Assembly (NCBI GenBank): GCA_030442055.1
Contig: JAUJEB010000004.1
Span: forward strand, 558,001-622,000
Origin: Agaribacillus aureus
Lineage (GTDB): Bacteria > Bacteroidota > Bacteroidia > Cytophagales > Cyclobacteriaceae
Length of the DNA stretch: 64,000 nucleotides
Direction of reading: 5' to 3'
Below are positions 57,915 to 64,000 of the stretch, piece after piece. Numbering within the stretch: the stretch's first letter is position 1; every line of letters starts with the position of its first letter. The notes under the pieces were generated by a model. The model was not told the DNA's origin. It searched no databases and saw only the letters and a list, made by a program, of their open reading frames with translations. The position numbers were made by a program, and so were the translations under genes.

Positions 57915-58352
57915 ATGATTATCTCCAGTAAAATTATCATCAACAGACCGGTCAAAGAGGTCTGGGATTTTTTTAACAACCCTGACAATATGCACCTATG
58001 GCTGACAGGCTTTAAACGATTTGAACAGATCAGCGGTGAATTTGGAAAAGTTGGCGCCAAAGCCAGGCACATTTATGAAGAGCGGGGTAAGTTGTTGGAA
58101 ATGGTGGAGGAAATTACAGGGCGGGAAGAATACAAAAAAATATCGTTAATTTTGAGCCATAAATCAATGGAATCAACAATCGAAACCGATTTTGAAGACT
58201 TAAACCATGAACGCACCTCTTTAATATGCCTGGTCAATGTGAAATTTAAATCTGTCTTTTTCAAGCTGTTTGGAAAAATGATGCTAGGATCGATGCAAAA
58301 ACGACAGGACAAGGACTTTAATACATTAAAAACCGTGATTGAATCAAGATGA
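57915..58352 (+). CDS. SRPBCC (START/Bet v1-like) domain protein
   Basis: The 145-residue protein is a single SRPBCC domain. INRPVKEVWDFFNNPDNMHLW is the family's N-terminal signature, with a long C-terminal helix from about residue 120. The fold forms a cavity for hydrophobic ligands such as lipids or polyketides. I cannot identify the ligand. It ends 40 bp before the ankyrin gene and could be co-transcribed. The start is ATG at 57915. Confidence 0.85.
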   Translation: MIISSKIIINRPVKEVWDFFNNPDNMHLWLTGFKRFEQISGEFGKVGAKARHIYEERGKLLEMVEEITGREEYKKISLILSHKSMESTIETDFEDLNHERTSLICLVNVKFKSVFFKLFGKMMLGSMQKRQDKDFNTLKTVIESR

Positions 58353-58392
58353 GCGCCATCCTTTCTTATGTTTTAATCAGAAAATCATTCCT

Positions 58393-59067
58393 ATGAAAAA
58401 ATCAAAAAAACCGTTGATTGAAGCTATAAAATCCGGAGCTGCGCAACAGGCCATCTCACTGTTGAATGAGCATCCATCCATGGCCGAGGAGCATACGGAT
58501 GAGGGTATCAGCCTACTATTGCTGGCAGCCTACTACCGGCAAGCAGACATTGTTGATACAATCCTGCGTTACAGGGAGCATTTAACTGTCTTCGAAGCAG
58601 CTGCCTGCGGCCACGTAAAATCTCTTAAGGAGGCCGTTAACAAGGATCCGGCCGTTTTGAACGCGCACGCTGAGGATGGTTTCACACCCTTGGGTTTGGC
58701 TTGTTTTTTTGGGAATGAGGAGATATGCAGCTTTTTGATTGAAGCCGGCGCAGACGTAAATCTTGCTGCCAATAATTCATTCAAAGTTCGTCCGTTACAT
58801 TCGGCGGTAGCCACTAAAAACATTAAAATCGCCCGCTTATTACTAAATCAGGGTGCCGCGGTAAACGCCAGTCAAATGGCTGGCATCACCCCTTTGCATT
58901 CAGCCGCTCACAACGGGCAAATGCCAATGGTTGAGCTTCTTTTGGCGCATAACGCGGATAGATCTCTTAAAACCAATGAAGGTAAATCACCGGCGGATCT
59001 GGCGCTGGAAGGTGGTTTTGACAATATCTCAAAATACATCGAAGACTTTGATGACCACAAGGGCTGA
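58393..59067 (+). CDS. Ankyrin-repeat protein
   Basis: The start is ATG at 58393 (224 residues); a TTG at 58339 would overlap the previous gene. Five to six ankyrin repeats are visible: EGISLLLLAAYYRQADIV, EDGFTPLGLACFFGNEEI, LHSAVATKNIKIARLLL and ITPLHSAAHNGQMPMVELLL carry the G-x-TPLHxA pattern. No signal peptide is seen, so it is cytoplasmic. Ankyrin proteins bind other proteins, and here no partner can be identified. The stop precedes a hairpin that serves the convergent operon. Confidence 0.9.
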   Translation: MKKSKKPLIEAIKSGAAQQAISLLNEHPSMAEEHTDEGISLLLLAAYYRQADIVDTILRYREHLTVFEAAACGHVKSLKEAVNKDPAVLNAHAEDGFTPLGLACFFGNEEICSFLIEAGADVNLAANNSFKVRPLHSAVATKNIKIARLLLNQGAAVNASQMAGITPLHSAAHNGQMPMVELLLAHNADRSLKTNEGKSPADLALEGGFDNISKYIEDFDDHKG

Positions 59068-59082: not shown

Positions 59083-59115
59083 AAAAAAAATGACCACCTC
59101 TGAACAAGGTGGTCA
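59083..59115 (-). terminator. Rho-independent terminator for the salvage operon
   Basis: TGACCACCT (59091-59099) and AGGTGGTCA (59107-59115) form a perfect 9-bp stem with a seven-base loop. On the minus strand the stem is followed by eight T residues (complement of 59083-59090). It lies 51 bp past the stop of the epimerase gene, ending the three-gene minus-strand operon. Confidence 0.92.
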
Positions 59116-59165
59116 ATAGTCACTAAAAATGGAACAAGCAAAAGGTCCATTTACTCTTTAATGTC

Positions 59166-60233
59166 TTAAATGAGTTCTACGCCTAATCCGGGTTTATCGG
59201 TGATAGACATCCAACCGTTTTCGATCTTAAATCCCGGGCTTACTACGTCTACTACAAGGTCGAGACTACCGTCGAGATCTATGTATTTTGTATGGCGGTA
59301 AGAAAGTGCGCTGTGCAGGGCAGCGGTAATGCTGATTGAGCTTTCATCATTACAACCCCACATTAAATCAATGCCGGCTGCCTTGGCTATCGTAGCAATC
59401 TGCCTGGCAGGATAAATACCTCCGGACTTCATCAACTTAATGTTAAAAATGTCACAGGCCTTCGGAGCAGAGGACAGGAGGAAAGCATCTTCGGCGGATT
59501 TAAGACATTCATCAGCGGCAATCAAGGCCTTAATTTCCGCCGGTAATTGCTTCATCAAATCTACCTGACTGGCCGGTACCGGCTGTTCTATCAGCTCCAT
59601 GTTCAACTGCCTTGTTTCCCTGAAGAAACGGACCAAGTCATTTTCGTCATATCCCTGGTTGGCATCAACCCGGATAGTCATTTCCCCGTTGTAGCGCTCC
59701 CTTAGCTTTCTCATGCGTTCAATATCTTCCTCCACATCTCTCCCTGTCTTCACCTTGAGCACTCTAAAGCCCATTTCATAATATTCCTGTGCCTCTTCCA
59801 GGGTACCGGTTACATCCTTAATTCCAATGGTCACAGAAGTGGGCATAGATTTTATTTTTTGCCCCAAAAAGATACTTAGAGGTATATCGATCGTTTTGGT
59901 AAAAGCGTCATGTACCGCAATATCCAGCGCGGCCCTGGCTGCAGGTGTAGCCGGAAAACGGGTAAGGATCTCATCCAGAATGCCATGAAATTCTCTAATA
60001 TCCCTCCCTATCAGGAATTCCAGGTTTTCCTCGGTTAGAGTACTCATACTATCGGCCAGTGACTCGCCAACAACCTGCTCGCTGGGGTTACCCGACCCGA
60101 GGCCATACTGGCCATTTTCCAGATTAAGCTTCACAAAAACATTGTCGACATCGTCAACCGTTTTAAATGCGATGGTATAGGGCCTGGTGTTACCCAGGTT
60201 TTTTCTCCAGACTTCTATTGATTTTATTTTCAT
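59166..60233 (-). CDS. Dipeptide epimerase / N-acyl-glutamate racemase of the enolase superfamily
   Basis: The 355-residue enzyme has the muconate-lactonising-enzyme fold. Acid/base lysines are in K160-V-K162 and K266 (FNIKLMKSGG), and the metal ligands are D190 (DANQGY), E216 (IEQPVPA) and D241 (AADE). A C-terminal DxD at 319-321 (IDLDG) is the mark of dipeptide epimerases, where it binds the substrate ammonium group. The reaction is likely epimerisation of L-Ala-D/L-Glu or another dipeptide, as in murein peptide recycling. The neighbouring DUF1611 protein suggests the related DgcA reaction, racemising N-acetyl-D-glutamate. Its ATG overlaps the stop of that gene by 4 bp. I cannot decide between dipeptide and N-acyl-Glu substrates. 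Confidence 0.9.
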   Translation of the reverse strand: MKIKSIEVWRKNLGNTRPYTIAFKTVDDVDNVFVKLNLENGQYGLGSGNPSEQVVGESLADSMSTLTEENLEFLIGRDIREFHGILDEILTRFPATPAARAALDIAVHDAFTKTIDIPLSIFLGQKIKSMPTSVTIGIKDVTGTLEEAQEYYEMGFRVLKVKTGRDVEEDIERMRKLRERYNGEMTIRVDANQGYDENDLVRFFRETRQLNMELIEQPVPASQVDLMKQLPAEIKALIAADECLKSAEDAFLLSSAPKACDIFNIKLMKSGGIYPARQIATIAKAAGIDLMWGCNDESSISITAALHSALSYRHTKYIDLDGSLDLVVDVVSPGFKIENGWMSITDKPGLGVELI

Positions 60234-61324
60234 ACCTTGATCATTTTTCTTTTGATAACTTCAACCAATCCGCCCATGCCGTCTACCAACGGACTGACAA
60301 CCGGCAGGCCGCTTCTTGTTGCCAAATCTTCCTTACTGGCACTTATTTGTGCCGCTGTCATGTCTGCAGTGTTCACCGTTAAGGCCCAGGTATCACAGCC
60401 TAGCAGCTCAATGATCTTTACATCCTCCAGGGCATCCGGAATAGTGGCCGGGAAGTATTCCAAATTACTATAATGGGTCCGTATAGGGTGATGCTGTAAA
60501 ATTACGCCATCCAACCTTCCGGAAACAATAAATTCCGATCCGCAGGGTCCACCAGGATTTTTGAGACTTGCCTGCCCTTCGATCAACATCACCTCCGGCT
60601 GTTCATTTTTCCAACAGCTATACATAGCATTTTCTAATTCGCCCGGAATAAAATCGTTAGGTGTGGCGTCGAAAATAAAACCGTATTTGGTGCCTTGCAG
60701 CCAACCGGTCTGACCAGTAAATATCATTTCAGATTTAATCCCAGCCTGGTTGAGCGCATTGTTAAGCAATTTTGTGGTGGTTCTTTTACCAATTGAACAA
60801 TCCGTTCCCAACACACCGATTTTAAGGCAATTCACCTCCTGTATTTTTCCATCCCAAAAATGAAGGTCCTCAAACGGTTTGGGTTTTCTGATATCGTAAA
60901 GTATAGCCTCATTTTTTTTTGCCAGATCGCTTAATTCACTAATACCGGATAAGGGCTGGTGTAAGCCGTTGACAATATGAATACCGTGAGACAAGACCTC
61001 GCTAATGACCGGATAAAGGCTCGGAGGAAGTATTCCTCCTTTGGTAGCCATACCAATAATAGCATATTCCGGTCTGTTCCCATTCTTCTCAATTAATTGC
61101 GCTATCGAGGATAAAATTGGGATATTCCTGTACTGGCCATCCAAAACCTCTCCGGCATCCCGGTTGGCGGCTTTGTTGTCAATCACGCCCACAATTTCAA
61201 ATCGCTTAGACTCCCTGATCAGACCATGCGCCGTTTTGGCATGAATGGTCTCCAATAAATCTCCGGTTATAATACAAGCTGTTCCTGTCAACTCCGGATC
61301 AATCATACGCTGTACTGTTGTCAT
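60230..61324 (-). CDS. DUF1611/DgcN-type P-loop protein
   Basis: The 364-residue protein has a Rossmann-like N-terminal domain (about 10-125) and a P-loop C-terminal domain with GTDCSIGKRT at 173-182 and VMLIEGQASL at about 246-255. It belongs to the DUF1611 family. Studied members (DgcN) acetylate D-glutamate so that an enolase-superfamily partner (DgcA) can racemise it. The gene is between a peptidase fusion gene (20-bp gap) and the epimerase gene (4-bp overlap), all in one transcription unit. I infer a role in handling D-glutamate or its dipeptides from cell-wall turnover. The nucleotide-binding motif is intact. The exact acceptor is not known. Confidence 0.85.
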   Translation of the reverse strand: MTTVQRMIDPELTGTACIITGDLLETIHAKTAHGLIRESKRFEIVGVIDNKAANRDAGEVLDGQYRNIPILSSIAQLIEKNGNRPEYAIIGMATKGGILPPSLYPVISEVLSHGIHIVNGLHQPLSGISELSDLAKKNEAILYDIRKPKPFEDLHFWDGKIQEVNCLKIGVLGTDCSIGKRTTTKLLNNALNQAGIKSEMIFTGQTGWLQGTKYGFIFDATPNDFIPGELENAMYSCWKNEQPEVMLIEGQASLKNPGGPCGSEFIVSGRLDGVILQHHPIRTHYSNLEYFPATIPDALEDVKIIELLGCDTWALTVNTADMTAAQISASKEDLATRSGLPVVSPLVDGMGGLVEVIKRKMIKV

Positions 61325-61344
61325 CCTTGTTTTAAATCTTTTAA

Positions 61345-63828
61345 TTATTCTAAATTAATTATTTGTCCATTGCTAATGGCCAGTATATTTTTATTATCCT
61401 TTTTTAGCAGAAAGTAAGCCTCTTTCCCCAGGGCAGGAAACGAAGTGGTTTCATCATCAGTAGATAATGTCATACCCTCCGCATCGATTTCTTTATAGCC
61501 ATAATAAGTGGAAAGATCTCCCATATCGGCAACGGCGCTTCGATAATATAATTCTTCCGAGCCGTCAGCAGCTATTTCATGTAGAAAAATACCAATATCA
61601 CTGGTATATGAGTGACCGTCTTTTTCCATGCCAACATTTCTAATCAATAAATCAAACAACTTCCGGTCGTTGTCCGGAATGTCGTAATAATCCTCCTCTA
61701 CCTCATTTTCATAATCCCCTTCGGCAATATCTATTAAGGCAGTTAACATGGCTACAAAGTTCAGTTTAACCAAATTTGTTTTTTCCGGATCGTCCGGGTA
61801 TCCACCAGATTCGATTAAAATGGTGCTGGTACCCCATTTCTGAATATTATCGCCAAAAGCTCTGGGTTCGAAGCTATCGTCATATTTCCCTACCTGGCCC
61901 GGAATATATTCCTGTAATACCTTGTTCATCGAAACGATGACTTTCATCGCATTTCTGCGGGTGTCGTTTACTTCTTTTTCATAATTATAGGCCGGAGCCA
62001 GAAAAGAAATTGACGCCGGCTTACCTGTGCGGTGAACGTTATAGTATATGCTCTGATCGTGCAGATTAAAACCAAAATCAGGGTCATATTGATCCCTTGC
62101 CTTCTTCAGAATTTCGGACTCCGGTGACTGAAGGCGCAAAGCATCTCTGTTCAAATCAAAGGACCAGGCATTTCTCCTGTTATATTTCTCCGCGCCATCG
62201 GGATTGAGCATGGGTATAAAATACAGGGTCAGCTTTTGCAATAGCTTTTTTCTTACAGGATCCATCAGATCGGAGGAAGAAAGGAATCTGAATATCTCAA
62301 AAAGTGACCTGGTCGCCGTTGACTCATCGCCGTGCATTTGAGACCAAAGCAGTACTTTTATTTCTCCATCACCGGCCTTAACAAGGTTTATTTCCCTGCC
62401 CTCCACGGAGGTGCCCACTTTGCTGACTTCAAAAAGTGGTATCTCTTCTAACCCGGTAATAAAAGGTTCGATATCCCGGCGCTTTATTCTCCGCTTACCC
62501 AGTGCAGGAATGTGATAATGTTTATAATTCTGGAACAAATCCACGTGTGTTTCACCTTGCCCTCCCACCGGCTTGTCATAACCCACCATAAATTTAGACA
62601 GATCCGGAAGTTGCTTTTTTTGCCTTTTCAATTCATACTGATACACTATCTCACCCAGGTTTTTCATGAAAGGGAGCCCCACTTCATCATACTCATATTT
62701 ACCGTCATTATAAATCTTGTTGGCGTTGGTATGAATGACCGCCGATAACATAAACTCCACCTTGTTTTCCAAATCGACGATATAAGCGTTATCGATCAGA
62801 TACCCGTAAGCCAATCCAATTTTATTAAATATCCTGATATGCTGCGGAATGGATGTTTTCTCTGAACCATACATCAAAAACTTACTGTAGGTGTCATAGT
62901 AATTGGCTGTATCGTAGTCGGGATAGGTGGTTTCCGCCGGTAACTGGGACATGTACCGGTATAAAAATTCATAGTCATCGTTGCTAAGGTTAAAACGCTG
63001 TTTTTGCGGCACGGACTCCGGAAATATAACGGCGCGAAGCATCATTTGCATTTCGTCCAGGGGAATATGGTTCTTTTGGCCAAAGTCCATGGGTTCGTTA
63101 ATAATACGCTCTCCTTTCAAATATCCCACACCTTTTAAAATCTGTCGTTTTTCGGGTAAAGGACCTGTATTGTATATTAAAGGTTGCTGATATACAACAC
63201 TGTCGTTTTCTTTAAAGGTTACAGGATTTGTATGTCGATTTTCTTCCTCACTCAGCGGAATGGAAAGGCGATGGGTAATGCGCGCATTCACATAACCCTT
63301 CTGATGCAGGTTGTCATTGATGGTAGCCTGGCCTAAAAATTCGTAAAGCCGGTTAAAAGCATCATTATCACTCACCAGAAATATTTTCCTGGCGTAATGC
63401 GCTACACTTGGCAGGCCTGAGGCAGCCGTTGTATCCTCGTAAACCGTCGATTGGCCGGAGTAGGCACTATCTGTCAACATAGAAGTATATTTGTTCAGAC
63501 CGTTGATTCCGAGTTCGTTCAGCTTTTCAAGGGCCAGGAAAGCTGCGGGCATTTTTACGGTACTGGCGGGATAGAAATATCGGTCCCGGTCAAAGTTGTA
63601 ATAAAATGATTTGAAGGAGGGAACATTGTTGCTATCACGGTTGATCTGTGTATAGATAATCTGCGTTTCGTACGCTTCCTTATTTTGCAGAACTTCGTCA
63701 AATTGAGCCGGTGCCGTACGCATAAGATTTTCTAAAAAATCCTGATCTTCGATTAATGCACTTTCGTTATTCATACAGCTAGTGAGTATAAAAAAAGCGA
63801 GTAGGGAACATCTTATAAGTGTTTTCAT
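61345..63828 (-). CDS. Lipoprotein fusing a serine hydrolase (penicillin-binding fold) and an M14 carboxypeptidase
   Basis: This 827-residue lipoprotein has a signal ending LTSC18. The first half (about 35-400) is a class-A beta-lactamase/DD-peptidase-like domain with the nucleophile motif S89-T-V-K92, S153-D-N155 and a K336-I-G338 in place of KTG. The second half (about 430-700) is an M14 zinc carboxypeptidase with H499 and E502 (MHGDES), DLNRD (560 region), H590 (NLHDQ) and the catalytic E673 (LIESGG). Both active sites look complete. The tail (about 710-827) is acidic and of unknown fold. One protein could thus remove terminal D-residues and then cleave a gamma-D-Glu-DAP-type bond. The next two genes encode a D-Glu-related pair, which supports murein peptide degradation. 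Confidence 0.85.
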   Translation of the reverse strand: MKTLIRCSLLAFFILTSCMNNESALIEDQDFLENLMRTAPAQFDEVLQNKEAYETQIIYTQINRDSNNVPSFKSFYYNFDRDRYFYPASTVKMPAAFLALEKLNELGINGLNKYTSMLTDSAYSGQSTVYEDTTAASGLPSVAHYARKIFLVSDNDAFNRLYEFLGQATINDNLHQKGYVNARITHRLSIPLSEEENRHTNPVTFKENDSVVYQQPLIYNTGPLPEKRQILKGVGYLKGERIINEPMDFGQKNHIPLDEMQMMLRAVIFPESVPQKQRFNLSNDDYEFLYRYMSQLPAETTYPDYDTANYYDTYSKFLMYGSEKTSIPQHIRIFNKIGLAYGYLIDNAYIVDLENKVEFMLSAVIHTNANKIYNDGKYEYDEVGLPFMKNLGEIVYQYELKRQKKQLPDLSKFMVGYDKPVGGQGETHVDLFQNYKHYHIPALGKRRIKRRDIEPFITGLEEIPLFEVSKVGTSVEGREINLVKAGDGEIKVLLWSQMHGDESTATRSLFEIFRFLSSSDLMDPVRKKLLQKLTLYFIPMLNPDGAEKYNRRNAWSFDLNRDALRLQSPESEILKKARDQYDPDFGFNLHDQSIYYNVHRTGKPASISFLAPAYNYEKEVNDTRRNAMKVIVSMNKVLQEYIPGQVGKYDDSFEPRAFGDNIQKWGTSTILIESGGYPDDPEKTNLVKLNFVAMLTALIDIAEGDYENEVEEDYYDIPDNDRKLFDLLIRNVGMEKDGHSYTSDIGIFLHEIAADGSEELYYRSAVADMGDLSTYYGYKEIDAEGMTLSTDDETTSFPALGKEAYFLLKKDNKNILAISNGQIINLE

Positions 63829-64000
63829 GGCTTCCTGTTTATTTCTCTAAAATGACCAAAAAAAGTCTTATTTGCTATCATTAATTTACCTTGACATCCT
63901 ACTTTTAAAAACAACCGGCCATTTTTAGCCATTGATAATCGGTTACCTGTTAATCTGTCAATCGTGTACATCAGCCATTAGTTCCGTTTTATTAAACCAT

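Follow-up and report, generated by a model that had tools for sequence, protein, structure and literature searches.

In the DgcN-DgcA pathway of D-glutamate, as far as the accessible parts of two reports describe it, a DUF1611 protein is paired with an epimerase of the enolase superfamily (PMC12363236, PMC10845958). Dipeptide epimerases are also encoded beside murein-peptide-cutting enzymes in the ycjG neighbourhood of Escherichia coli and the ykfB neighbourhood of Bacillus subtilis, again according to the available portion of the source (PMC5808125). A further point of comparison is a Bacteroidota murein locus of the Urechidicola symbiont of Idas mussels, which, in the accessible part of its description, comprises susCD together with genes for an N-acetylmuramoyl-L-alanine amidase, a D-Ala-D-Ala carboxypeptidase and an L-Ala-D/L-Glu epimerase (PMC10199937). 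Here we analyze three adjacent genes in a 64,000-nucleotide stretch of DNA (hereafter, the window) from Agaribacillus aureus (Cyclobacteriaceae, Cytophagales, Bacteroidota; assembly GCA_030442055.1, contig JAUJEB010000004.1, positions 558,001-622,000). They encode a lipoprotein in which a beta-lactamase-like domain is fused to an M14 peptidase domain, a DUF1611 protein and an enolase-superfamily epimerase, and on balance they appear to constitute the downstream end of an operon for the utilization of peptidoglycan (murein) peptides.

All three genes are on the minus strand. The gene for the 827-amino acid (aa) fusion lipoprotein (61345..63828; recognized by open reading frame (ORF), Pfam and lipobox) is followed after a 20-bp gap by that for the 364-aa DUF1611 protein (60230..61324; ORF and Pfam), which overlaps by 4 bp the gene for the 355-aa epimerase (59166..60233; ORF, Pfam, tree and residues). 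A hairpin of 10 pairs and a subsequent T run, resembling an intrinsic terminator on the same strand (59115-59091), lie 50 bp past the final stop, in full agreement with the first-pass annotation of this DNA, which had described a tight minus-strand row with its own terminator. The unit extends upstream beyond base 64000 on the same strand. Across a gap of 171 bp (63829..64000), just outside the window, comes a gene for an S66 LD-carboxypeptidase (window-equivalent 64000-65061, its last base being window base 64000), then genes for a small lipoprotein of 149 aa with no Pfam match (65152-65601), SusD (65632-67107) and, farthest upstream, SusC (67117-70230). The SusC and SusD genes are adjacent and co-directed, which is the arrangement of a SusCD-type uptake locus. 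By eye, the N-terminus of the S66 protein is twin-arginine-like, and no export signal was seen by the same inspection in the DUF1611 protein or the epimerase.

The DUF1611-epimerase pair resembles DgcN and DgcA in common P-loop and core residues and in the DxD motif present in both epimerases, but the window proteins score far below the DgcN and DgcA cut-offs, the epimerase belongs to a different branch, and exported peptidases and SusCD genes adjoin the pair. Compared with the ycjG and ykfB neighbourhoods, the M14 domain falls outside the MpaA model and the locus adds a beta-lactamase-fold partner, DUF1611, S66 and SusCD. The Urechidicola locus alone has ampG, murQ, nagB, bioF and glycosidases, and neither DUF1611 nor M14 is named in the accessible part of its description (PMC10199937). 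What looks new here relative to that locus is the presence of DUF1611 with an epimerase of the clade that includes the solved structure 3rit, S66 and the beta-lactamase-fold/M14 fusion. We found no description of this combination in the literature searched, which is weak evidence, with subscription papers mostly uncovered; the earlier remark that the combination was not known as a described system holds for the exact gene set in that literature, but a related Bacteroidota murein locus has been published.

The 827-aa protein carries a lipobox (LTSC, by eye) and has two Pfam matches, to Beta-lactamase2 (PF13354, aa 78-350) and, above the cut-off, to Peptidase_M14 (PF00246, aa 466-561). Pfam therefore bears out the original identification of a lipoprotein peptidase, a DUF1611 protein and an enolase-superfamily epimerase, to which the beta-lactamase-like half of the lipoprotein is to be added. 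The serine domain extends over residues ~27-402 in the predicted model and the M14 domain over ~430-790, judging from matches to separate M14 proteins. The serine half carries the SxxK, SDN and KxG motifs and has a class A beta-lactamase/PBP-A-like fold. The 827-aa protein scores 16.3 bits with the class A beta-lactamase model NF033103, for which the cut-off is 200; no equivalent of the omega-loop Glu166 was identified in the serine half, and an acidic residue is found at position 195 in 47/47 rows. Foldseek and VIA matches of the beta-lactamase-like part, a 425-aa segment modelled alone (the full fusion reached a pLDDT of only 39 with a 5-row alignment), do not separate beta-lactamases from D,D-peptidases, PBP-A being among the ties; the domain is likely a D,D-peptidase. 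In the M14 half, the zinc ligands and catalytic Glu (H499, E502, H590, E673) are intact in all 16 aligned rows, and the domain likely cuts at the D-Glu-diaminopimelate (DAP) region. The suggestion of an MpaA-type enzyme is not supported by the score with the MpaA model NF007897 (12.0 bits against a cut-off of 157). Fusion of the two halves is found in four genomes: that of A. aureus and, from a survey of named genomes, those of Cytophagales MAG.99, Fulvivirga imtechensis AK7 and Cyclobacteriaceae RM1_1_3. Among the matches listed for 291 genomes drawn from the order, all but the A. aureus protein cover one half only, beta-lactamase-like or M14.

The DUF1611 protein consists of a Rossmann-like N domain and a P-loop C domain (PF07755, 6.5e-50; PF17396, 9.3e-21) and shares G173, D175, G179, K180, D219, D224, E231 and E249-Q251 with four DgcN-type rows. 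With the DgcN model NF041892 it scores 131.6 bits against a cut-off of 480, far below the DgcN proteins of loci L095 (560.9) and L097 (540.0), and the epimerase reaches 140.8 of the 400 bits required by the DgcA model NF042940, so the assignment of the pair to DgcN and DgcA is not supported. We know of no activity assigned to DUF1611 besides that of the DgcN branch, and we take 7xrj to be the DgcN of the original D-glutamate study. A second DUF1611 gene of A. aureus, on another contig (C35, L004:6305-9582), starts a tight same-strand row that continues with a calcineurin-like metallophosphatase and an S13 D-Ala-D-Ala carboxypeptidase. More distant DUF1611 genes, with no epimerase in the stretch fetched, lie beside lysC, a lysA-type decarboxylase gene and/or asd (L084, L087, L092; also L085, L090, L091, L098; Pfam was run on L084, L087, L090, L091 and L092), and L087 and L092 also hold an S66 protein with a Tat-like N-terminus. 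These neighbourhoods suggest a role of DUF1611 in lysine/DAP metabolism.

The epimerase (Pfam MR_MLE_N/C) goes under chloromuconate cycloisomerase-like names in databases. Its catalytic lysines (K162, K266), metal ligands (D190, E216, D241) and DxD motif (D319, D321) are intact in every aligned row. The DxD motif, singled out from the outset as the mark of dipeptide epimerases, is thus present, but it is not diagnostic, being shared by four DgcA proteins (L095, L096, L097, L100) that score above the curated cut-off for DgcA; as proof of a dipeptide rather than N-acetyl-D-Glu substrate it was rejected. The two L-Ala-D/L-Glu epimerase models were not reached either (NF041118, 228.8 of 500 bits; NF011708, 91 of 343 bits), and their cut-offs overlap other activities, the DgcA of L095 passing NF011708 with 343.7 bits. 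In the tree, the window epimerase falls with 3rit into a group of 25 rows (support 98/91), apart from YkfB and DgcA. 3rit is also its nearest solved structure, with 51% identity and the same GCxDES loop. We take 3rit and 3ro6 to be a dipeptide epimerase of Methylococcus capsulatus, which Lukk et al. in 2012 reportedly found to act on cationic dipeptides (L-Arg-D-Lys); we know of no natural substrate of the clade. Position 24 is Lys in the window epimerase and in 109/112 clade members and Arg in YkfB, where it presumably binds the Glu side chain, and position 296 is Asp in 112/112 clade members, in 3rit and in 20/22 sister rows, but Ile in YkfB and Val or Gly in the five rows of lowest score, which include four DgcA proteins. 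Glu occupies position 24 in 13 of 22 mid-scoring epimerases, which, as a sequence feature, hints at a basic substrate in those proteins. In a sister branch of such pairs (L067-L080), the DUF1611 and epimerase genes lie beside one for a PLP-fold PALP enzyme, to which some loci add a CN_hydrolase or a protein with a creatininase domain (Pfam: L069 and L072 only). A literature search, beyond which no further look was taken, found no link of a dipeptide epimerase to cyanophycin.

The association of DUF1611 with the epimerase is nearly perfect. Among 296 genomes drawn from the phylum, 57 contained a DUF1611 match, and 56 of the 59 rows were taken for neighbourhood analysis, leaving out the two of A. 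aureus itself and one weak row (G074). An epimerase gene lay on the same strand within 700 bp in 37 of these neighbourhoods and at up to 2.6 kb in another 5; the remaining 14 stretches had none. In the draw of 291 genomes from the order, with DUF1611 counted at 240 bits or above and the epimerase confined to the window's clade, DUF1611 was found in 54 genomes and the epimerase in 53, of which 52 had both (Fisher p 6e-54); 2 genomes had DUF1611 but no such epimerase, 1 the reverse, and 236 neither. A co-directed DUF1611 gene lies within 1 kb of the epimerase in 40 of 54 rows, and all but one of the genomes with the other 14 rows encode DUF1611 elsewhere. The pairing therefore holds without adjacency, and this co-occurrence of unlinked genes points to a common pathway and not just to a common order of genes. 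The trees of the two proteins are also correlated (mirror-tree r 0.92 over 113 pairs, a value that none of 1000 permutations reached), which weighs little because shared descent alone would be expected to produce it.

Conservation of gene order across Bacteroidota, the check proposed with the first-pass annotation, was examined in the 80 best of at least 567 epimerase relatives from named genomes, with 8-kb flanks, some ending at contig ends. DUF1611 is directly upstream of the epimerase in 70 of the 80 loci under a 700-bp rule that misses over-extended ORF starts (e.g., L156, L174), and four of the ten remaining loci begin near a contig end. The gene preceding DUF1611 in these 70 loci encodes the fusion in 3, the beta-lactamase-like protein alone in 26 and M14 alone in 7 (Rufibacter, Sabulibacter), with neither in 34. 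Thus, the expected order is conserved in that M14, fused or separate, comes right before the pair in 10 loci, and a beta-lactamase-like gene, fused or alone, in 29. SusD was found in 10/80 loci and S66 in 5/80. Four loci (L151, L153, L154, L157) share the order SusD-S66-amidase-[beta-lactamase-like or fusion]-DUF1611-epimerase, the amidase being in every case a 220-224-aa Amidase_2 protein (PF01510); that of L151 matches solved N-acetylmuramoyl-L-alanine amidases. The order in L130 is SusC-SusD-S66-DUF1611-epimerase, and in L132 and L133 the row M14-DUF1611-epimerase is followed by lipoprotein-SusD-SusC on the other strand, with a beta-lactamase-like gene 8-9 kb off. In MAG.99, the closest relative (L150:3805-6894), the fusion is preceded by no more than a SusC remnant of 92 aa, and no SusD or S66 ORF is labelled between the two.

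In genomes of the window's family that lack the DUF1611 pair, M14 is a separate protein, and its gene lies next to, and divergent from, that of a second type of epimerase in 20/20 family genomes for which both rows were listed, with 168-218 bp between the matches. This comparison set 73 listed M14 rows against 23 of 111 second-epimerase rows (21 of the 22 of the window's family plus two). The nearest solved structures of the second epimerase are 3iji/3ijl/3ijq, which we take to be a Bacteroides L-Ala-D-Glu epimerase, and among the NCBIfam models it scores highest with DgcA (228.3 bits against a cut-off of 400). Of the 42 genomes in the family, 22 have the second epimerase, 10 the DUF1611 pair and 1 both (p 0.003), a near-exclusivity that favours a substrate common to the two epimerase types, perhaps L-Ala-D-Glu. 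In the surroundings of 20 separate beta-lactamase-like or M14 genes, L245 and L247 have the second epimerase close to M14, and L232 has it near the beta-lactamase-like gene; no clear theme was apparent by eye among their other neighbours.

Murein peptides as the substrate of the unit are suggested by the S66, SusD and SusC genes within it, the amidase in the four related loci, the tie between M14 and the second epimerase, and the S13 D-Ala-D-Ala carboxypeptidase in the row of the other A. aureus DUF1611 gene; the general theme of murein-peptide salvage, already proposed for the three genes, is strengthened accordingly. In the following model, for which we infer the substrate, the order of the steps, their location in the cell and every activity, SusC, SusD and the small lipoprotein would carry murein fragments over the outer membrane. 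The stem peptide would then be trimmed outside the cytoplasm by the LD-carboxypeptidase, which is probably Tat-exported, as well as by the beta-lactamase-fold and M14 domains of the fusion. The small product would enter the cytoplasm, and there the near-obligate pair of DUF1611 and dipeptide epimerase would invert a D-configured residue to give an L-residue suited to ordinary catabolism. Several observations weigh against this model. The 34 loci with neither a beta-lactamase-like nor an M14 gene upstream of DUF1611 and the few loci with S66 or SusD limit the linkage, and the locus counts are not independent events because the loci are related by descent. No relative of the amidase was found in the A. 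aureus genome, in a search without a positive control. 3rit is presumably an enzyme of cationic dipeptides and not of L-Ala-D-Glu. The second epimerase itself scores below the cut-offs of the L-Ala-D/L-Glu epimerase models (157.3 of 343 and 145.3 of 500 bits). Finally, across the order (111 typed rows in 108 genomes, a few of them weak at 30-35% identity), the second epimerase is present in 30 of the 52 pair-bearing genomes, with 19.3 expected (p 0.001), so the window's epimerase clade may do something else.

The closest alternative retains murein peptides and follows the classical enzymes, with an MpaA-like M14 peptidase, an epimerase that turns L-Ala-D-Glu into L-Ala-L-Glu and a DgcN-like DUF1611 protein acting on D-Glu. 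We consider it a genuine possibility, although not one to be favoured: Lys24 takes the place of Arg24 of YkfB, the presumed binding residue for the side chain of Glu, the two epimerase types are distributed within the family as if one had replaced the other, and M14 adjoins both, but all four proteins of reference (DgcN, DgcA, L-Ala-D/L-Glu epimerase, MpaA) have models whose cut-offs are missed, the two types coexist across the order, and the epimerase groups with 3rit. The cationic specificity attributed to 3rit would agree with another alternative, in which the pair acts on a basic or DAP-bearing compound, such as an N-acylated D-centre of DAP or DAP-D-Ala, and the operon salvages the DAP half of the stem peptide. 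Given the conservation pattern of Asp296, K24 and D296 could therefore clamp a zwitterionic side chain, and the distant DUF1611 genes linked to lysC, lysA-type genes and asd, with S66 in two cases, point the same way. This reading nevertheless seems doubtful to us: Asp296 is not special to the window's clade because 20 of the 22 sister rows have it, and the lysC/lysA-linked DUF1611 proteins are only ~29-33% identical to that of the window and have no epimerase in the stretch fetched.

Two explanations dispense with a joint pathway. The lipoprotein might serve beta-lactam resistance or some other scavenging of peptides, its link to the epimerase being incidental, as its class A fold could indicate; moreover, many genomes with beta-lactamase-like homologues lack the pair, which, among the matches listed, was found in 26 of 74 typed genomes, with 13.2 expected. 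The low score with the NCBIfam class A model, the position of the gene just upstream of DUF1611 in 29 of 70 loci, its fusion to M14 in four genomes and its place beside amidase and S66 in L151, L153, L154 and L157 make this improbable. That the genes are merely conserved neighbours with unrelated functions and ordinary annotations we regard as very improbable indeed; related genomes do share gene order by descent, but DUF1611 and the epimerase co-occur even where unlinked, and beta-lactamase-like and M14 genes attach to the pair separately in different lineages.

If the murein-peptide operon is real, a lineage of Bacteroidota would have an outer-membrane import locus dedicated to feeding on peptides of the cell wall, in which the inversion of a D-residue would combine a domain whose function is unknown with a protein filed as chloromuconate cycloisomerase-like. 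The locus thereby provides a concrete, testable context for DUF1611 and the 3rit epimerase clade. Bacterial peptidoglycan is an important part of the slowly used dissolved matter in the ocean, according to the accessible part of one report (PMC10845958). A bolder, and in our estimate unlikely, extension has DUF1611 and the epimerase of the 3rit clade working as a general mask-and-invert module in Bacteroidota, directed here at the DAP or basic part of murein peptides rather than at D-glutamate. The module would be fed by a bifunctional lipoprotein, in which a serine peptidase of the penicillin-binding type and a zinc peptidase, joined in one chain, would make two successive cuts in the stem peptide as one enzyme.

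A few observations concern the surroundings of the unit and of its relatives. Its convergent neighbour in the window encodes an ankyrin-repeat protein (58339-59067, plus strand). At L240:2416-5352, the genes for a separate M14 protein and an S13 D-Ala-D-Ala carboxypeptidase are arranged divergently. Just beyond the SusC gene of A. aureus and divergent from it is a 346-aa ORF with no Pfam match (L003:10458-11498, plus strand), look-alikes of which, by eye, adjoin SusC or a SusC remnant in L130, L131, L150 and L155.

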